Source: Zunongwangia endophytica | GTDB lineage: Bacteria > Bacteroidota > Bacteroidia > Flavobacteriales > Flavobacteriaceae | Direction: 5' to 3' | Assembly: GCF_030409505.1 (NCBI RefSeq) | Contig: NZ_JAUFPZ010000002.1 | Span: 4,160,501 to 4,224,500, forward strand | DNA: 64,000 bases | Part shown: piece by piece, positions 8,441-15,989 of the stretch | How positions within the stretch are numbered: position 1 is the stretch's first letter | Layout of the letters: each line of letters starts with the position of its first letter | Notes under the pieces: generated by a model | What the model was told of the DNA's origin: nothing | Seen by the model: the letters and a program-made list of their open reading frames with translations, nothing else | Database searches by the model: none | Program-made: the position numbers and the translations under genes

Positions 8441-9568
8441 ATGGGTTCGATTAAAAATATTACACTGTATAATCTGATGATCAATAATCAGAAGGTGATT
8501 GGTATCCGGTTCGCTCCAGATAAGGTTATACAGGCACTTATAAAAAGTCTGGATAGCCCAAAATGGAGCCCTAAGTACCATTTGGTCTATATTCCCAATA
8601 GCAAAGAAAATCTGGCACAATTGAATAATACGTTTAAAGGAGTTGCCTGGATCAATTATAATCGTTTCTTAACCAACAGGCTTATAAATACCGGTAATGA
8701 AAAGGTAGATGCGGATTGGTTTCGTCACAGAATCCTCCCCGATAATTATCGCCGTGGTCCTGAAGATTACCTGCTTAAATTAGAACTTAAACGTTATGCC
8801 ATAAATACAGTACGAACCTATGTGACTTTTTTTGAACAGTTTATCAATTACTATCCCGATAAAGACCCATATACACTAAATGAAACGCATATACGCGCTT
8901 ACCTGCAAAGGCTCATTCACCAAGAAAAGTCAAACTCCTATCTCAACCAGGCCATCAATGCTATAAAATTTTATTATGAAGTGGTATTGGGTATGCCCAA
9001 CCGTTTTTATGAAATCGAACGCCCCAGAAAAGCATATAGACTCCCACAGGTTATTTCTAGAAAGGAAGTGCTATCCATAATAGCCCATACCAACAATCTA
9101 AAACATAAATGAATAGTCCAGCTTATCTATGGTTCCGGCTTACGCAGAAGTGAATTACTGAATTTAAAAATTAATGATATCGATAGCAAGAGAATGCTGG
9201 TAAGGATAAAACAGGCCAAAGGGAATAAGGATCGACTAAGCCTATTATCCCATAATGCATTATTAAATTTACGCAGCTATTATAAAATCTGGAAACCCAA
9301 AGACTATCTCTTTGAAGGTCAAAAAGGGGAAAGATACTCTGGCCAGGCCGTAGTAAATATCATAAAGAACGCGGCTTTAAAAGCTAAAATTTCTGTTCCA
9401 GTAACCCCGCATATGTTAAGGCATAGTTTTGCGACGCACTTGTTGGAGGCAGGGGTCGATTTGAGACAAATACAAGTTATACTGGGGCATCAATCCACAA
9501 AAACCACAGAAATTTATACGCACGTGGCTACAAATACTTTTAAAACAATAAAAAATCCACTAGATTAG
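8441..9568 (+). pseudogene. Tyrosine recombinase interrupted by one in-frame TGA
   Basis: A site-specific tyrosine recombinase of about 375 residues, read without any frame change except a TGA at 9110-9112, where relatives usually have a cysteine (KHK*IVQLIYGSGLRR; one base from TGC/TGT). The N-terminal extension and the SAM-like core-binding domain (about 110-200) precede the catalytic domain. Catalytic residues are all present: Arg in GSGLRRSE, Lys in KQAKGNKDR, HMLRHSF, LGHQSTK and Tyr in IYTHV. The C-terminus ends KNPLD, as in XerC/D and IntI relatives. I do not see the extra helix insertion of classical IntI. It reads in the same direction as the cassettes that follow, so it is the candidate integrase of the array; as written it is probably inactive unless TGA is misread or a sequencing error. 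Confidence 0.85.
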
Positions 9569-9584
9569 TACTTTAACTAAAATG

Positions 9585-9625
9585 GATATAACACAACTTG
9601 TTGTGTTATCCGTACGTTACCTACA
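9585..9625 (+). other. attI-like primary recombination site
   Basis: Seventeen bases after the recombinase stop there is a hairpin: GGATA-TA-ACACAA, loop CTTG, TTGTGT-TATCC. It is followed by GTAC and then the GTT box GTTACCTACA (9616-9625). That box is repeated as an exact reverse complement at the end of the next gene (10661-10670). By analogy with integrons, the junction between G9616 and T9617 is the expected left edge of cassette 1. The hairpin could also act as the recombinase terminator, but it has no U-tract. Confidence 0.5.
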
Positions 9626-9630
9626 ATTTG

Positions 9631-10665
9631 ATGATTGCATACACAACAAACATAGAAAGTGTTATAATTGAAAACTTTTCAAATGCAAAAAAGTCAATAA
9701 CTATTATAGTTGCTTGGTTTACAAATTCTAAAATTATTGAATCACTTATCAGCATTAAAAACAAATCTAATATTGATATAGAAATTTTAGTTGATGATAA
9801 TCATATAAATCAAAAATATTTTTTCGAAAAACATCAAGAAAATTTACTAAACGCTGGAATTTTAATAAAAAAACAAAATATTAAAAAATTCAATCATAAT
9901 AAATTTTCAATAATTGACAAGAAAAAAATTATTACTGGTTCATACAATTATTCAGTTAAAGCAAACAAAAATCTAGAAAATATCGTTGTTTTTAAAAATA
10001 AAAACATAGCATCTTATTATCTCAGAATTTTTAAGTTTTTAACAAAAGAAAAATATATTGATGAAAATGTAGAGTTATTATTTGAAGATATTGAATTTGC
10101 AAACAAATTAATATCAACATATTATCCTTTTAACCGAATACTATTTAATAAATTAAAAGATAAAATTAAAATAGGAGAATGTTATACATACCCAAATGGA
10201 TTATATGACGAAATCCATTATGAACCAGGACTTATCTTTAATCAAAAATACACGTTGCATAAAGAATTAGTGAAGACAATTAAAAAGAGAAATAAAGGAG
10301 AATTATCATTTGAAGATATGGATTCCCCTTTCAATCAAGAATTTAATTTACCGATTGACAAGGAGTTAATTAAAAGCCATATCATAACAGAAATTAGTGA
10401 CTTTAATCATTCAACTCTTCAAGAAACTGCACACTATGACAAATCAGAAATTGATTACGAACAATTTGGAAAGGATTACGAGGAATTAGAAATTGCAGTT
10501 GACAGATATTATACCAGAAAGTTTAAAAAAACATTCAGTAAGAAAAAATTAAAAGCTATTTTAAACAAAGAAATTGATATTATTAAAGAAAACTATATTT
10601 GGATTAATAATTTCGAACCATTCCTAAACGACAATATTGTTTTGGAAATTTATAAAAAACTGTAG
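9631..10665 (+). CDS. Phospholipase D-like (PLDc) domain protein, cassette 1
   Basis: A 344-residue protein with one PLD-like domain in the first 130 residues: IIVAWFTN, then the HxK motif HNKFSIIDKKKIITGSYN (about residues 89-106). PLDc_2-type proteins are nucleases or phosphodiesterases, often with defence or DNA-processing roles; one HKD motif implies a dimer. The C-terminal 200 residues are Lys/Glu-rich and unrecognised. I chose ATG 9631 over an earlier TTG at 9598, because the earlier start would run through the cassette boundary. Its stop codon (10663-10665) lies inside the closing box TGTAGGTAAC. Its AT content is markedly higher than that of the recombinase, consistent with a foreign cassette. 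Confidence 0.75.
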   Translation: MIAYTTNIESVIIENFSNAKKSITIIVAWFTNSKIIESLISIKNKSNIDIEILVDDNHINQKYFFEKHQENLLNAGILIKKQNIKKFNHNKFSIIDKKKIITGSYNYSVKANKNLENIVVFKNKNIASYYLRIFKFLTKEKYIDENVELLFEDIEFANKLISTYYPFNRILFNKLKDKIKIGECYTYPNGLYDEIHYEPGLIFNQKYTLHKELVKTIKKRNKGELSFEDMDSPFNQEFNLPIDKELIKSHIITEISDFNHSTLQETAHYDKSEIDYEQFGKDYEELEIAVDRYYTRKFKKTFSKKKLKAILNKEIDIIKENYIWINNFEPFLNDNIVLEIYKKL

Positions 10666-10674
10666 GTAACACCG
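10661..10674 (+). other. Left part of attC-like site of cassette 1 (R'' box), split by IS1182
   Basis: TGTAGGTAAC (10661-10670) is the exact reverse complement of the cassette-opening box GTTACCTACA at 9616. It continues ACCG, then the IS1182 element starts. Removing the element and one ACACCG copy gives GTAACACCGTGTATA, which matches AACACCGTATATA in the intact second site. Confidence 0.7.
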
Positions 10675-12340
10675 GTAACCGTTGCACAAGCCAATAATTT
10701 CAAAAAATCCTGATTTAAATAAGCCGCTTTAAGCGGTTTTATTGTTTAAAGTTGGTAGCCTATACTCCAAAAATTGGAGTGCTTAGAAGGCTACTTTTTA
10801 GTGCTCCTACAAGGTTTTGATAATAAATGGACTGGGCAAGCTGGGCTGCCCCAGTTTTTATACGTTTACCCGAATATTTGAGGTACTTCTTCAGGTTATA
10901 GGCAATGGCAGCCAGGTGCATGCACTTATTGGCCTGTTTGATCCCAATTGTGTGAATCTTCCGAAGTCCTAGATGTTCTTTCAAAATACCAAAGACAGGT
11001 TCTACCGTGCTCTGGCGCTTACCTTTCATATAACGGCCAAGCCTGCTGTTTACTCGTTGGTTGTTGCGTTCATATTCTTCACGGTAGGCGGTAATGTTGA
11101 TCCGCTTCTCATGGCTCTTGCCAATACAAGCCGCTTTGATGGGGCAGCCCTTACAATCACTGCGTTTGGTAAAATAGTTATCCTTAAGCGTACCTTTCTC
11201 CAACTTCTGTTTCCGGAAGGTTACTTTCTTGCCCTTTGGGCACAACCAGTAGTTCCCTTCTTTTACATACTTGAAGCCTTCAGGGCCACCTTTATACGTA
11301 CCATGGGCAGGAATGTAACTTTTGATCCCTTTACCTTCCAGGTAATGGTAGTTCTCCCCGCTGCTATAACCAGCATCGGCCAACAGATGTTTCCAAATCA
11401 AGCCTTCCCGACGTAAGCGGCGGTTTAAACGCATGGTGGTATCCTGTAAATATTGATTGTCTTTCTTATCGGCATGATATCCATGGATATCAGTGATCAC
11501 ATGGAAACCGGTATCCACTGCCATATTGCAGAGATAATTCAGTTTCCTGGCCTTGCCGGGCTTTACGCTGATACGGGCATCAGGATCTGTAGGACTGTAG
11601 TGTGTTTTATTACTAGTATAGCGGCTTCCCTTATTTTTAGCCCCGGGACGCATATCCTGGTCCTGGCTCCACTTTTTGTTTCGGCTCTCAATATCCTGAA
11701 GTTCCTTTGGACTGGCGCTGATCTGTTGTTGCTGCTTTGGGGCTTTATTGATCTTGGCTTTGCGGTCACGCTGGCTTTGTACCCGTAACTTAGCAAGATG
11801 ATTCGCCAGTTCTTCGGCCGGAACTTTAATCTCCAGGCTATCCATGGAGGCGTTGGCTTTTATCGGAGCTGAGTCTATCGCCTGGGTATGTCCCTTGACC
11901 AGTCCCGATTCGATACAAAGCTGCAACACTTTGGTAAAGACTTCTTCAAAGATATCATCCGGAAATAACTGCCGGGTACGGCTTAGGGTACTATGCCAAG
12001 GAAGTTCTTCATCCACATCATAGCCCAGAAAATAGAGGATATCCAAACGCATTGAAGCATGAGTTATAACACCGCGGTCGGTAATCATATTTTCCAAATA
12101 GCCGACCAAACAAAGTTTAAAAAATACCACCGGGTCAATACTTTTTTGACCGCTGGTACCGTAAAACTTTTGGGTAAGTCTATAGAGAAAATCTAGAGAT
12201 AGCGCGTCTTTTAAACGCCTGTAAAAATTCTCTTCGGGGATCCGGTCACTTAACCGAAAGGAGGTGAAGAGTTTTTCCTGATAATTCTTTTTGCCCTGCA
12301 TGCAGTAAATTAGCTCTTTTTACTAACTTGTGCAACAGAC
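10675..12340 (-). mobile_element. IS1182-family insertion sequence inside an attC-like site
   Basis: The ends are related inverted repeats: GTAACCGTTGCACAAG on the left (10675-10690) and, reading inward from the right, GTCTGTTGCACAAG (12340-12327). The element is flanked on both sides by ACACCG (10669-10674 and 12341-12346), which I read as a 6-bp target duplication. A CCGCTTTAAGCGG hairpin with a T-tract at about 10723-10740 is inside the left end. One transposase gene fills the element. Exact termini need comparison with other copies. Confidence 0.7.
10760..12301 (-). CDS. IS1182-family transposase
   Basis: A full-length 513-residue DDE transposase. It shows the IS1182 layout: an N-terminal InsH/DUF772-like domain (DPVVFFKLCLVGYLENMI, about 56-73), a central low-complexity basic linker with QQQQ (about 185-205), the catalytic acidic residues in IDSAPIKA and LLADAGYSSG, and the C-terminal DDE_Tnp_1_6-like part with a four-cysteine cluster (CPKGKK ... 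CKGCPIKAAC, about 360-392) and TVEPVFGILKEHLGLRK carrying the last catalytic Glu. It appears intact and could be active. It reads against the cassette genes. Confidence 0.93.
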   Translation of the reverse strand: MQGKKNYQEKLFTSFRLSDRIPEENFYRRLKDALSLDFLYRLTQKFYGTSGQKSIDPVVFFKLCLVGYLENMITDRGVITHASMRLDILYFLGYDVDEELPWHSTLSRTRQLFPDDIFEEVFTKVLQLCIESGLVKGHTQAIDSAPIKANASMDSLEIKVPAEELANHLAKLRVQSQRDRKAKINKAPKQQQQISASPKELQDIESRNKKWSQDQDMRPGAKNKGSRYTSNKTHYSPTDPDARISVKPGKARKLNYLCNMAVDTGFHVITDIHGYHADKKDNQYLQDTTMRLNRRLRREGLIWKHLLADAGYSSGENYHYLEGKGIKSYIPAHGTYKGGPEGFKYVKEGNYWLCPKGKKVTFRKQKLEKGTLKDNYFTKRSDCKGCPIKAACIGKSHEKRINITAYREEYERNNQRVNSRLGRYMKGKRQSTVEPVFGILKEHLGLRKIHTIGIKQANKCMHLAAIAYNLKKYLKYSGKRIKTGAAQLAQSIYYQNLVGALKSSLLSTPIFGV

Positions 12341-12469
12341 ACACCGTGTATAATTAATGGCTGGTTCTCGCCTACTTACGAAAATCCTCGCGGATTTTCT
12401 ATTCGGTTTTTATTTGTTAAATTAGATGCTTAAACACGCCACTAATCATACACAAACACGTTGTAAGTA
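12341..12469 (+). other. Right part of attC-like site of cassette 1
   Basis: The 5' arm ACACCGTGTAT-A-ATTAATGGC (12341-12360) pairs with the 3' arm GCCACTAAT-C-ATACAC (12438-12453), followed by AAACAC and the crossover box GTTGTAAGTA (12460-12469). One unpaired base in each arm lies at the same place as in the second site. The loop contains a perfect inner hairpin, GAAAATCC-TCGC-GGATTTTC (12380-12399). The crossover by analogy is G12460/T12461, giving the start of cassette 2. Confidence 0.65.
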
Positions 12470-12492
12470 ATGCCGAAAAACCCAGAAACCGA

Positions 12493-13287
12493 ATGAAAAA
12501 GACAATATTTGAAATTACCAAAATGGACTGTCCTTCAGAGGAAAATCTAATCCGAATGAAATTAGATGGAATTTCAAGCATTGCGAATTTGGAGTTTGAT
12601 ATTCCGAATCGAAAATTGACCGTTTTTCACAGCGGAGAAATTGACCAAATCGAAAAGTCAGTTATCGAACTAAATTTAGGTGGAAAGAAAATCTCGACTA
12701 AACAAACCGACCAAACGGAATTTAAAGAAAACAAAAACCAAAAAAAGCTACTTTGGTCTGTACTCGTTATAAATTTTGCGTTTTTTATAATCGAAATGAC
12801 AACAGGAATTATCTCAAAATCTATGGGACTTGTTGCCGATAGTTTAGATATGCTTGCGGACAGTTTTGTTTACGGAATTAGTTTGTTTGCGGTTGGCGGA
12901 ACAGTAATAAAGAAAAAACGGATTGCCAAACTTGCTGGATATTTTCAAATAATACTTGCGATTATTGGATTTGTAGAAGTTTTAAGAAGATTTTTCGGAG
13001 ACGAGAAACTTCCCGATTTTTCGACAATGATTATCGTTTCGATTTTCGCACTTATCGCAAACGGAATTTGTCTTTATATTTTGCAAAAGTCAAAAAGTAA
13101 AGAAGAAGCACATATGAAAGCGAGTATGATTTTCACCTCGAATGACGTGATTATAAATTTAGGAGTAATAATTGCAGGAATTTTAGTGCATTATTTGAGT
13201 TCTAATAAACCTGATTTGATTATTGGAACAATCGTTTTTATATTGGTAATTCAAGGAGCGTTTAGGATTTTGAAATTAAGTAAGTGA
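12493..13287 (+). CDS. HMA-domain cation diffusion facilitator (heavy-metal exporter), cassette 2
   Basis: A 264-residue fusion of a heavy-metal-associated-like domain (residues 1-65; TKMDCPSEENLIRMKL replaces the usual CxxC with a single Cys) with a CDF-type transmembrane part of about six helices starting at residue 78 (LLWSVLVINFAFFIIEM). The CDF metal site is recognisable as SLDMLADSFVYG (D-x3-D, with Ser/Tyr variation). It presumably exports Zn, Cd, Co or a related cation. It begins 24 bases after the cassette edge and ends 14 bases before the closing box, so it fits one cassette with no room for its own terminator. Confidence 0.8.
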   Translation: MKKTIFEITKMDCPSEENLIRMKLDGISSIANLEFDIPNRKLTVFHSGEIDQIEKSVIELNLGGKKISTKQTDQTEFKENKNQKKLLWSVLVINFAFFIIEMTTGIISKSMGLVADSLDMLADSFVYGISLFAVGGTVIKKKRIAKLAGYFQIILAIIGFVEVLRRFFGDEKLPDFSTMIIVSIFALIANGICLYILQKSKSKEEAHMKASMIFTSNDVIINLGVIIAGILVHYLSSNKPDLIIGTIVFILVIQGAFRILKLSK

Positions 13288-13300
13288 ATGAAAAAAGCAC

Positions 13301-13502
13301 TACTTACAACACCGTATATAGCTCATAGCTGGGCAGTTGCTTAATCGAAGTTTAGGCATATTTGCGAAGTCCGCCAAATTTTTTAATTTGACTTATTGAG
13401 AAAAAAAGGTAATAAGAAAATTAAAAAATCCGGCTAGTGCTTAACCGAAAAAAATATTGATAATTTGCACGCTACGAGCCATATACAAGACCGTTAGCCA
13501 GC
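13301..13502 (+). other. attC-like site between cassettes 2 and 3 (intact)
   Basis: The site opens with TACTTACAAC (13301-13310), the exact reverse complement of the box that opens cassette 2 (12460-12469). The 5' arm CCGTATAT-A-GCTCATAGC pairs with the 3' arm GCTACGAGC-C-ATATAC (13471-13486), then AAGACC, then the next box GTTAGCCAGC (13493-13502). A second long stem lies inside the loop: ATTTTTTAATTT and AAATTAAAAAAT with GCC/GGC clamps (about 13373-13435). The whole can fold as one cruciform or single-stranded hairpin of about 200 nt, as attC sites do. Confidence 0.75.
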
Positions 13503-13511
13503 ATTAATATC

Positions 13512-14075
13512 GTGAGACAACTAAAAATAGAAAATTTAAAAAGGGAAATTGAGAATTTCAAAGTTGATGAAGAAAATTCCTATTTAAATAGCTACCAAGA
13601 ATTCATCCAGTATTTCAGTAAAATACCAAAAATCGAAAAACATCATTTGATAATTTCAAGTCATTTCGTTTATGGGTGGATGCCAACAATTTTAAAATTA
13701 AAACTGAACAATTTAGAAGAAGTACTTCAAATTCTAAACAAAGCCAAAACAGACAAAATTTTAAATTATAAAGAACTTGAAAAATTGAGAATTTCAATTA
13801 ATAATTCTTTGGTAGGATCATCAAAACTGCTTCATTTCATAAATCCAGAAATTTATCCAATTTGGGATAGCAAAATTTTCAAATATTGGTCCGGAAATAA
13901 AACAACATACGGAATTCAAAAACCTGAAAATTATTTAGAATTTACCAACCAGGTTAAGAAAACTATTCAACACAAAGAATTTGCTAAAATTCATAACAAG
14001 ATCAATGAATTACTCAAGTATGACGTAAGTTCTGTACGTGCTTTAGAATTATTAATATTTCAATCTTATAAATAG
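13512..14075 (+). CDS. Hypothetical protein, first gene of cassette 3
   Basis: A 187-residue soluble protein with a GTG start at 13512, 18 bases after the cassette edge; no better in-frame ATG exists before residue 58. I do not recognise the family. The middle (SSKLLHFINPEIYPIWDSKIFKYW, read in two parts) resembles the heme-less, helix-rich core of small abortive-infection or toxin-like proteins only vaguely, so I assign no function. It is followed after 6 bases by a second small gene, so cassette 3 carries a two-gene unit. Confidence 0.65.
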   Translation: MRQLKIENLKREIENFKVDEENSYLNSYQEFIQYFSKIPKIEKHHLIISSHFVYGWMPTILKLKLNNLEEVLQILNKAKTDKILNYKELEKLRISINNSLVGSSKLLHFINPEIYPIWDSKIFKYWSGNKTTYGIQKPENYLEFTNQVKKTIQHKEFAKIHNKINELLKYDVSSVRALELLIFQSYK

Positions 14076-14081
14076 ATTAAA

Positions 14082-14381
14082 ATGAATAAAAGCAAAGTAA
14101 TCGACCTCAATATCAAAAAGGACTACAATAGAAAATTGGATAAAATTGTAGAAAAATTAGAAGATATTGACAAGGTGATTTTCGGATCTATGATTGAACT
14201 TTCAACTTCTGATAAATGGAAAGATTGGTCAGAAAAACAGAAAGAAGGAACTGTTTTTGAATTTAATGAGACAATGTTCGAAAACTGCCCGGATATTAAT
14301 GTTGCAAAACTACTTGATTTGAGAAGAAAATTAGATTCCACAATTCTTGAATTAACGCAGGCTAACAAAGAACTAAGCTAA
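14082..14381 (+). CDS. Hypothetical small protein, second gene of cassette 3
   Basis: A 99-residue charged, mostly helical protein (MNKSKVIDLNIKKDYNRKL at the start; heptad-like LRRKLDSTILEL near the end). No family recognised. It lies 6 bases after the preceding gene and is probably co-translated with it. The last codons overlap GCAGGCTAAC (14357-14366), a 9/10 match to the reverse complement of the box that opens this cassette, so the final residues KELS may be supplied by the inserted IS110 rather than the original gene. Confidence 0.6.
   Translation: MNKSKVIDLNIKKDYNRKLDKIVEKLEDIDKVIFGSMIELSTSDKWKDWSEKQKEGTVFEFNETMFENCPDINVAKLLDLRRKLDSTILELTQANKELS
14357..14366 (+). other. Candidate closing box of cassette 3
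   Basis: GCAGGCTAAC matches 9 of 10 bases of GCTGGCTAAC, the reverse complement of the opening box GTTAGCCAGC at 13493. A second GCTAAC occurs at 14377-14382, so the exact position is uncertain. The expected ACCGTATAT arm does not follow; the IS110 element does. Confidence 0.45.
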
Positions 14382-14393
14382 CTTCCAAGCATT

Positions 14394-15383
14394 TTATCCC
14401 AATTTTGATACATAATTTTCATCATACGGTAAACCCGATTTTGCCACTGCAAAAGCCTGTTTTAGCAGTTTATTGCATACGGTAATTAGCGCGAGCTTCT
14501 TACTTTTTCCTTTTGCTATTATTCTCTCGTAGATATCCCTGCAGGCCTTATTATGTTTACAGGCAGTAAAGCTGCACATGAACAGTAGGTTTCTAAGCTT
14601 TGGATTACCCATTTTACTGATTCTACTTTTGCCCCGCACAGTGGATCCTGATTGACGAATAATTGGAGTAATTCCAGCATAGCTACATAACTGGTTCCCA
14701 TTCTCAAAATTGGTAAAACCATTAGTTAATACTAATAACATAATACCTGTTTTGTTGCCTATTCCTGGAATACTTCTTAGAAGTGTAAGCTGCTTTTGTT
14801 GCTCATCTTTAACAATCTCACTTAATCGATTCTCAAGAGTTAATAGTTCCTTTTGTAGCACTTTAAGTGATCTTTTTAAGGAATGATAAACGACTTTTGA
14901 TGGTTTGCCTAGTACCTTTTCTCCATGAAGCTTATTCTTTAGTGCTGTACTCTGCTTAGTATAAATATCTATTAAACGAAGTAACTGAAGGGCTTCCGCC
15001 TGGCTATTGTCTCTTCCCATGTACAAAGGTACCTCATTGATACATGCATATTCGCATATCGCTTTGGCATCGGACTTATCCGTTTTCACTTTAGAGAGCT
15101 TCATCTGGATAAAACGCTTTACTGATAAAGGATTTACTACTGAGACTTTTATTCCTTGCTCATAAAGAAACTGTGCTAGTCTATAGTGATAATACCCTGT
15201 AGCTTCCATGACCACCAAGTCTTCTTTAATTAGAATCTTTAAAAAGCCTTTAAAACCAGAGCCAGTATTTTCATACTGAAAATACTTCCCTTTTGAGTTG
15301 GCCACATCAAATACTCCTTTACTGATGTCTACACCATAAATTTCATTATTTTTATTCATAGAAAAATGATTGAGAAAGGACAC
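14394..15383 (-). CDS. IS110-family transposase (DEDD recombinase)
   Basis: A 329-residue full-length IS110-type recombinase. The N-terminal RuvC-like domain has YGVDISKGVFDV (Asp of the DEDD set), VMEATGYYHY (Glu) and KTDKSDAKAICEYA (two Asp). The C-terminal transposase_20 domain has RSIPGIGNKTGIML, with SYAGITPIIRQSGS and the catalytic serine region. These enzymes use a bridge RNA from the element's non-coding end to choose the target. It looks intact. Confidence 0.95.
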   Translation of the reverse strand: MSFLNHFSMNKNNEIYGVDISKGVFDVANSKGKYFQYENTGSGFKGFLKILIKEDLVVMEATGYYHYRLAQFLYEQGIKVSVVNPLSVKRFIQMKLSKVKTDKSDAKAICEYACINEVPLYMGRDNSQAEALQLLRLIDIYTKQSTALKNKLHGEKVLGKPSKVVYHSLKRSLKVLQKELLTLENRLSEIVKDEQQKQLTLLRSIPGIGNKTGIMLLVLTNGFTNFENGNQLCSYAGITPIIRQSGSTVRGKSRISKMGNPKLRNLLFMCSFTACKHNKACRDIYERIIAKGKSKKLALITVCNKLLKQAFAVAKSGLPYDENYVSKLG

Positions 15384-15566
15384 CTACTTTGGTTTTCATC
15401 GACTTAAAAACGAGATCCAGGTCTCATAGAACTAAACGAAATTAAAGTAGAAAAGAGACGGGATTATCAATGTTGACGGAATCTCAAGTTCCCACGCGTA
15501 TTATAACCTTACTCCTCTCTTTTGTTCTTTCATATTAACGGATAAAAGTTAAGAAATCAAACTTAA
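15384..15566 (-). ncRNA. Non-coding IS110 end, probable bridge-RNA region
   Basis: In IS110 elements the non-coding stretch upstream of the recombinase encodes a structured bridge RNA whose loops pair with target and donor. This 180-base stretch has no ORF and contains paired words such as CGAGATCCAGGTCTCATAG and GACGGAATCTCAAGTTCCC. The assignment rests on family knowledge and position, not on a folded model. Confidence 0.4.
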
Positions 15567-15677
15567 GACGTATATCGCAAATAGGCGGTAAAATTCTAAA
15601 GAAAATATTTAACTTGATCAACAAATAAAATCGTTAAGCCGACAAATTCGCGTCCCCTACTCCGCCAACTTGCGTTA
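15567..15677 (+). other. Remnant of third attC-like site
   Basis: The 5' arm GACGTATAT-CGCAAATAGGCGG (15567-15588) pairs through its second half with CCGCCAACTTGCG (15662-15674), two mismatches in 13. The matching ATATAC tail expected next in the 3' arm is missing: three bases (TTA) later an intron-like sequence begins. So one site appears split by IS110 on its left arm and by a group II intron on its right arm. Confidence 0.45.
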
Positions 15678-15989
15678 GTGTGCCGAGCAAACAATGACCG
15701 GCAATAAATAGTCATTGTGAACTATAATTAAGATGGTAGAATCGACCTACCGGTGTCGTCTTATAGGAGAAGGCATCAAACCACCCAAAGATGCTTTGGT
15801 AAAGAGCCAAGGTATTGAGCGTTTAGGAAACGGCCAGTCAAGAATTGGTCAGGTATGATTAAGAGAGATGAACAAAAGTGAACCCCTTCTGAGGTGTCGA
15901 GAAGTTGCTACATCCTGTCAAAAGCCACGAAGTATCGCACGGGGTTAAAGAGTATAGCAGTTACCTATTTATTGGCTATACGTATCCAC
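15678..15989 (+). ncRNA. 5' fragment of a group II intron
   Basis: It begins GTGTGCCGAGC, which fits the GUGYG start of group II introns. It goes on with domain-I-like text: GGTAGAATCGACCTACC hairpin, AACGGCCAGTCAAGAATTGG, then AAGTGAACCCC ... GAGGTGTCGAGAAG and CATCCTGTCAAAAGCCACGAA. No reverse transcriptase gene or domain V follows, because the IS66 element begins at about 15990. It is therefore a truncated relic. The upstream exon ends in the attC-like stem, which is the insertion habit of group IIC introns. I recognise it from sequence style; a covariance model would settle it. Confidence 0.6.

Follow-up and report, generated by a model that had tools for sequence, protein, structure and literature searches.

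A gene array at positions 8441-15697 of a 64,000-nucleotide stretch of the Zunongwangia endophytica genome (the window; C2:4160501-4224500, C2 being contig NZ_JAUFPZ010000002.1) is very probably the decayed end of a Bacteroidota system that captures gene cassettes in the manner of an integron and whose tyrosine recombinase is not of the integron integrase type, IntI. An earlier note, made from the letters of the window alone, had described an integron-like array here, with cassettes opened by a GTT box and closed by its reverse complement behind a non-canonical recombinase. The cassettes and their boxes are real. We call the array decayed because the recombinase gene has an in-frame stop codon at 9110-9112 (the remainder is still in frame), the first recombination site is split by an insertion sequence (IS) and the third is interrupted by an IS110-type element; on these points the earlier description had to be corrected, and the intact system lies outside the window. 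The reading draws on the anatomy of the arrays, the complementarity of the boxes, covariation in the folded sites and a predicted strand asymmetry, as well as on the fixed place and orientation of the sites relative to the recombinase, the absence of the IntI insert and the recurrence of the same cassette unit in different contexts. A cassette would be the unit from a GTT to the end of its own attC-like site. The features of the window locus are as follows, with the evidence for each in parentheses.

8441-9568, + strand: tyrosine recombinase gene, putative integrase of the system, of a lineage with palindromic attI (open reading frames, ORFs; PF13495 and PF00589)
9584-9615, + strand: attI-like site, an inverted repeat GGATATAACACAA..TTGTGTTATCC adjoining the first cassette (sequence; inverted repeat at the same place in six loci of five other genomes)
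9616-10670, + strand: cassette 1, with opening box GTTACCTACAATTT, the gene of a PLD-like protein (ORF end 10665) and an AAC-ended closing box (boxes 13/14; PF13091)
10668-12462, + strand: attC-like site of cassette 1, split by an IS, main part of the hairpin core at 12340-12462 (102.1 bits with model R1 at 12330-12473; IS flanks)
10760-12301, - strand: IS transposase inside the attC-like site of cassette 1 (PF13751 and PF05598)
12460-13310, + strand: cassette 2, a cation-efflux family gene (12493-13287) between the box GTTGTAAGTAATGC and its near reverse complement (boxes 13/14; PF01545)
13308-13495, + strand: attC-like site of cassette 2, long form, 188 bases (107.3 bits with model R1 at 13297-13506)
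13493-14366, + strand: cassette 3, with two genes, 13512-14075 (DUF6308 match below the cut-off) and 14082-14381 (without a family) (boxes 12/14)
14364-15697, + strand: remains of the attC-like site of cassette 3, interrupted just inside AAC (remnant core 15559-15697, a weak match of 18.7 bits, E 0.064)
14394-15383, - strand: IS110-type transposase inside the attC-like site of cassette 3 (PF01548 and PF02371)

Compared over 14 bases, the three box pairs of the window match at 13 (9616 with the AAC ending at 10670), 13 (12460 with 13310) and 12 positions (13493 with 14366), and every pair has an A at base 11 of the opening box opposite a C in the closing box. The second gene of cassette 3 extends over its closing box. 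The hairpins that the earlier note had seen between the cassettes proved sound, since their stem covaries and the sites of cassettes 1 and 2 both score above 100 bits when searched with a model derived from 38 sites elsewhere in the genome. In a phylogenetic tree the window recombinase clusters with those of genomes G080 and G032 (support 100/99), and it is 67% identical to the latter.

The site at 12341-12469 has 33 matches in the genome, itself included, in clusters at C2:1031918-1231344, at C2:176881-207185 and on contig C1. An intact 403-residue relative of the window recombinase is encoded at C2:1026224-1027435 and heads an array of ~90 kb, the intact system spanning C2:1026224-1117119; an 83%-identical recombinase (P0002) occurs in Zunongwangia sp. 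HGR-M22. Iterated profile searches of the fetched pieces (E <=0.1) returned 147 matches, all on the same strand within each cluster; 143 were used as sites, and both ends are present in 137. They delimit 119 cassettes in four clusters (contig C1, a near-copy, being excluded from these counts): 67 behind the intact recombinase, 31 at C2:1188309-1231356, 20 at ~C2:173-207 kb and one in the window. An ORF of at least 80 residues is found in 92 of the 119, and in 91 of these 92 the longest ORF is sense-oriented. As in integrons, the cassettes hold one or few genes in one orientation with recombination sites between them. The earlier note had named hairpins that occur only as transcription terminators or as ends of miniature inverted-repeat transposable elements (MITEs) as an outcome fatal to its reading; instead, the hairpins stand between successive units of one or few genes, almost all of which point the same way.

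The two boxes of a cassette resemble each other far more than those of different cassettes. Among 118 cassettes of this genome, the seven bases after GTT match between opening and closing box at rates of 0.95, 0.88, 0.91, 0.87, 0.91, 0.87 and 0.63, against 0.52, 0.33, 0.39, 0.33, 0.33, 0.33 and 0.42 when boxes of different cassettes are paired. Position 11 never matches (0/118) and is A/C in 104 cassettes, A/A in 8 and A/G in 6; positions 12-14 match again (0.89, 0.92, 0.81), position 15 falls to 0.42 and background follows beyond it. At least six of the eight bases after GTT agree in 79% of real pairs and in 3.3% of mismatched ones. The extended box can be written approximately as GTT-N7-A-TTT at the opening and AAA-C-N7-AAC at the closing end. 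For other genomes, 283 of 290 sites were aligned and 14 of these dropped (13 without AAC or GTT in place and one on the opposite strand overlapping a site on the expected strand). In the resulting 243 cassettes all six bases after GTT agree in 83.5%, compared with 1.9% of mismatched pairs from the same genome, and position 11 is A/C in 211. Box pairing at chance level elsewhere had been named beforehand as an outcome that would refute the integron-cassette reading, which thus survived this test. The classical R box has the consensus GTTRRRY, and the observation that the boxes here depart from it holds generally: the consensus fits 3 of 119 own openings and 20 of 269 in other genomes. Opening and closing boxes lie apart in the linear array and would meet in a circle, which is the logic of classical cassettes with a longer and freer box.

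The sites between the cassettes fold. The 39 own sites chosen for the model measure 121-192 bases. Among 38 diverse own sites, compensatory changes were found at 12 of 16 pairs of the inner stem, with 102 double-change cells compared with 30.6 after shuffling; the structure was derived from the alignment on which it was tested, which favours it in the number of cells that are paired. One-sided changes in the stem, such as those giving G-U, are nearly absent. Alignment columns 29 and 189 hold A and C in 38 of 38 sites, and columns 24 and 195 are unpaired in 31 of 38. When the site of a cassette is reconstituted, the predicted stability is greater for the bottom strand in 112 of 118 own cassettes (with DNA parameters, means of -28.3 and -24.4 kcal/mol) and in 232 of 243 cassettes of other genomes, whereas random stretches of the arrays (n=300) showed no bottom-strand bias (41%). 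The bottom-strand fold would be preferred because the A/C mismatches of the top strand turn into G.T pairs on the bottom strand, and a role as RNA is unlikely because the better fold is on the strand opposite the transcript. The predicted folds include a central asymmetric loop in 111 of 118 own sites and 235 of 243 others; apart from this spacer, no loop unequal by one base occurs in 74 of the own sites and 148 of the others. The features expected of attC, namely AAC...GTT ends, an imperfect inverted repeat and a foldable bottom strand, are all found, the sites having been selected in part by AAC and GTT.

Behind the recombinase gene, the sequence is conserved up to the GTT and then differs with the first cassette. 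In 22 loci, which include the own array and that of Z. atlantica, the attI-like end reads ATATAAC.A before the GTT in 12, is a close variant in three and is an inverted repeat in six, as it is at the corresponding position in the window; in the one remaining locus, L100, no attI-like site was placed. The opening box was assigned on six of six bases in 17 loci (L100 included), on five in four and on four in one. As to position, then, a candidate attI adjoins the recombinase gene as it does in integrons.

The recombinase is unlike IntI, as the earlier note had suspected. Its best NCBIfam model is NF040815 (231 bits), a broad label although its name ends in 'integron integrase'. TIGR02249, the curated IntI model, gives 197 bits against a cut-off of 265 and matches in two pieces, 7-178 and 242-313, skipping profile positions 179-241; in the comparison with IntI4 (2a3v) the match has a gap at residues 181-247, where the query has only 22 residues between 288 and 311. 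The ~42-residue IntI-specific insert is therefore absent, and with it the specific additional domain (I2 helix) by which a canonical IntI-type integrase is recognized. The motifs GLR..E and H.LRH are 91-92 residues apart in 34 array recombinases, 98 apart in six XerC/D and 133 apart in five IntI, as measured in 18 of 19 long recombinases, 16 of 22 others and five of nine IntI (13 sequences were unmeasurable or ill cut). The predicted fold (predicted local distance difference test, pLDDT, 81; predicted template modelling score, pTM, 0.53) has an N-terminal alpha/beta extension of ~100 residues ahead of the usual two domains. A structure search placed XerA first by E-value and IntI4 next, while by TM-score IntI4 (0.52) stood above XerA (0.38). 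In the tree, from which L164 and L167 (long branches) and short or ill-cut ORFs were excluded, IntI (100/100) and Xer with XerA (100/97) each fall on one side of a branch, and the array recombinases are grouped at 87/67; an earlier tree without XerA gave them 41/76. On such support, no sister or ancestral position to IntI is claimed.

Sites and recombinase occur together well beyond this genome. Scanning with a covariance model, as the earlier note had proposed, was done with one built from 38 own sites, the E-values of which are rough. It found sites in 134 of 149 genomes of Flavobacteriaceae (E <=0.001; 16 candidates scored per genome). A recombinase of this type (alignment A3, E <1e-90) was found in 19 of 25 mostly complete genomes, every one of the 19 with sites as well. 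The 20 recombinases of these 19 genomes were taken with 20 kb on each side: 285 of 285 sites (E <=0.01) lie 3' of the recombinase and on the strand of its gene, and they occur in 20 of 20 downstream and none of 20 upstream stretches. With no site in its 400 kb, the 5' side provides a control for the rough E-values; in a smaller search space, one further weak match on the opposite strand appeared, overlying a site. The link between sites and recombinase on which the earlier note had staked its reading is thus found in every one of these loci, and site clusters without such a recombinase also exist. Over the phylum, at least 80 of 296 genomes have a site at E <=0.001 (eight candidates scored per genome), and in 33 genomes with sites, mostly outside Flavobacteriaceae, a relative of the recombinase was found at E <=1e-50 in 19.

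In the distant family f23 a shorter relative (~280 residues, without the N-terminal extension) stands beside such sites in the opposite direction. In classical integrons the integrase reads away from the array, and this orientation is the classical layout. Five of seven tested f23 genomes with the short recombinase also carry a canonical IntI elsewhere. Sites were found beside six of six short recombinases and beside one of six canonical IntI genes (at 3.8-6.5 kb and facing that gene); contig ends shortened two of the six IntI stretches to 1.3 and 2.9 kb. A Chryseobacterium plasmid encodes a recombinase of 36.6% identity, behind which lie five sites, four clear and one weak, and its sole testable pair of neighbouring sites has boxes that agree at 12 of 14 bases; the system therefore occurs on plasmids too. 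Separately, the genomes G100 and G340 hold multi-copy recombinases of ~300 residues, some of them in or beside site clusters, which are perhaps elements living in the arrays.

Related cassettes were found in several contexts within the genome. The similarity between own cassettes 0 and 54, a copy at attI and a relative in mid-array, begins precisely at a GTT and stops precisely at the following one. In five intragenomic cassette pairs the similarity is exact at the unit borders once and within 16 bases of them once. Only two of the 119 own cassettes (>75% identity, >70% length) recur in 280 kb of array regions of a congener, each in another context, and the cores behind both are diverged or interrupted. 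It is the distribution of the cassettes that points to integrase-dependent excision and integration, which would follow the course set out below.

Circularization would bring the two boxes of a cassette together and let them pair over 14 bases. The hairpin so formed would have the cassette-specific boxes as its R arm and, beyond an unequal central spacer, an L arm, its bottom strand being preferred. The recombinase at the head of the array would join the folded site to the attI-like site next to the recombinase gene by a crossover at the GTT or adjacent to it, and new cassettes would consequently enter next to the recombinase and in a uniform direction. We infer from the anatomy catalysis by the recombinase, circular and single-stranded intermediates, the strand used, the crossover base, insertion at attI, expression and regulation. 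Such a system would work like an integron and is not canonical by the IntI criterion.

Several observations weigh against this account. Folding yields loops unequal by one base in 44 of the 118 own sites and in 95 of the 243 from other genomes, so that extrahelical bases are not wholly absent. Five of the 22 attI-like assignments depend on four or five of six box bases, and that of L100 lies 1460 bases from the gene. The recombinase does not accompany every cluster: two own clusters (C2:1188309-1231356 and ~C2:173-207 kb) have none by a PF13495 search, four of the six genomes without this recombinase type among the 25 nevertheless have sites (35, 20, 6 and 11; the remaining two have none), and 14 of the 33 further site-bearing genomes have no relative at E <=1e-50. 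One of the 20 recombinases, that of G025, is itself interrupted. In two of the five cassette pairs the alignment continues on the left into a similar core, and one pair is uninformative; the diverged or interrupted cores behind the AAC of both congener-shared cassettes mean that the core is not always inherited with the gene.

Among other explanations, an action like that of Xer on dif, on double-stranded sites and with hairpins and box pairing as by-products of inverted binding sites, is unlikely, though less so than the other two. The NF040815 match is to a Xer-type model, XerA leads the structure search by E-value, the IntI insert that docks extrahelical bases is absent and some attI-like sites are inverted repeats. 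Double-strand exchange at GTT, however, would require neither 14-base complementarity between the far ends of a cassette nor mismatches that favour one strand, and the stem changes are almost all compensatory double changes. Xer/dif modules have short double-stranded sites of dif type, recombined by XerC/XerD; the sites here are long with covarying stems, and the array recombinases stand apart from Xer and XerA. Classical integrons, or clusters of attC sites without an integrase (CALINs), with their IntI elsewhere or lost, would account for the AAC/GTT ends, the unequal spacer, the identical cassette anatomy and orientation and the clusters without the new recombinase. This is very improbable, as TIGR02249 exceeded its cut-off in 0 of 149 family genomes, GTTRRRY is rare among the openings and, where both kinds of enzyme occur in the same group, the sites stand beside six of six short non-IntI recombinases and one of six IntI genes.

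Hairpins acting as RNA terminators or riboregulators, or dispersed as MITE-like repeats with box pairs that are target duplications or chance, can be given almost no credence. The sites are intergenic and fold strongly, as such elements would, but the boxes are inverted rather than direct, specific to the cassette and matched far above chance, one-sided changes of G-U type are nearly absent and the better fold lies opposite the transcript. An Rfam scan of 124 kb at gathering thresholds yielded only one tRNA and one piece of a group II intron; the sites matched no Rfam family. The comparison of box pairs across genomes led to the rejection of terminators, MITEs and chance as explanations.

We return to an integron-like system with a non-IntI recombinase. 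With sedentary chromosomal integrons of Vibrio type it shares an array of few-gene cassettes in one direction, an integrase at one end and an attI-like site, a bottom-strand bias, and cargo that matches defence-system models. It also shares hairpin sites with AAC/GTT ends and an unequal central spacer, which are attC features according to PMC2727003, and gene-less cassettes (PMC11014356). The integrase differs in its want of the IntI insert and, in Flavobacteriaceae, in its ~100-residue N-terminal extension. Classical integrons differ further in that the integrase gene here reads along with the array, the boxes vary over seven bases, are extended by ATTT/AAAC and are not GTTRRRY, the A/C mismatch is fixed and most sites are predicted to be without a single extrahelical base. 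The two own clusters and the genomes G071, G059, G142 and G143, in which sites occur without the long recombinase type, resemble CALINs, from which they differ in that the sites are of a new type and every genome with the long recombinase (19/19) has them. Archaeal integrons were likewise found in a group thought to lack them, and their IntIs, unlike the recombinase here, are reported to keep the IntI-specific additional domain (PMC9668308). XerA, XerC and XerD share the catalytic domain without the IntI insert and the best NCBIfam match; the catalytic core here is shorter than that of XerC/XerD by the motif distances given above, the sites are long and folded, the enzyme heads cassette arrays, and Xer and XerA keep to their own side of a branch (100/97). 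Among the titles and abstract openings listed in searches of the open-access literature, which takes in no preprints and few subscription papers, none described such arrays in Flavobacteriaceae or an integron with a non-IntI integrase.

It is an even matter whether Bacteroidota hold a second, independent or ancestral, kind of integron in which single-stranded hairpins are recombined without an I2 helix, the strand being chosen by G.T pairs and the central bulge and not by docked extrahelical bases. Such a kind may represent the state before the IntI insert was gained, or a parallel origin. Integron surveys rely on IntI and canonical attC, and sites of a different type occur here in 134 of 149 genomes of one family; the system would add a large pool of cassettes to the bacterial mobilome, and a single covariance model would suffice to search for it. 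The shift of integrases from double-strand to single-strand recombination is a further question on which it bears. A natural integrase without I2 that heads arrays, at sites that would mostly lack the ligand of I2, makes the idea that I2 brought about this shift directly testable. The I2 helix is credited with the shift, and intermediates are said to be lacking, in PMC7790495.

Guest elements were noted in the arrays. The end of the IS110-type element of the window (14367-15569) also lies directly before a site core at C2:1224418, and an IS110 family gene is found within the array of the Chryseobacterium plasmid, L127. IS1111-attC elements target classical attC sites, and the placement of the IS110-type element here recalls them. 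RF01999, a domain of group II introns, matches at 15735-15854 of the window (105 bits), just behind the damaged array, and the Chryseobacterium plasmid array encodes a reverse transcriptase of this intron class. Group II introns are known guests of integrons, as mentioned in PMC7923331.

Elsewhere in the genome, contig C1 (24875 bases) is 99.96% identical to C2:1089528-1107900 over 18.4 of the 20 kb examined, and may have arisen as a duplicate in the assembly, belong to a variant strain or be a genuine second copy. Two clusters are separated by a site-free stretch of 71 kb (C2:1117120-1188308) with ordinary-looking genes, judged by their first residues only; a rearrangement may have split the array around it. 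A tRNA gene (L014:5967-6040) lies ~180 bases upstream of the intact recombinase gene.

Twenty-seven of the 119 own cassettes are without an ORF of at least 80 residues, among them C2:1027472-1027995, 1046844-1047354 and 1076930-1077447. Most tested gene-less cassettes of Vibrio have promoter activity, according to PMC11014356, and a Bacteroidota-type promoter pattern was matched in one of the 27 here. A closing motif near GTGTCG is shared by 23 of the 119 cassettes, in families with different boxes. The cargo scan covered 112 of 117 cassette ORFs, two that cross piece borders and three antisense ones being left out. Matches were obtained to 89 Pfam families, with transposase (rve) domains the commonest among the 25 listed. 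In PADLOC, 59 families were matched (E <=1e-5), and 24 of the 25 listed by one protein each; these include AbiLi, PifA, Argonaute-TIR, AriA and a 2TM effector, which are model matches with a putative function in defence.

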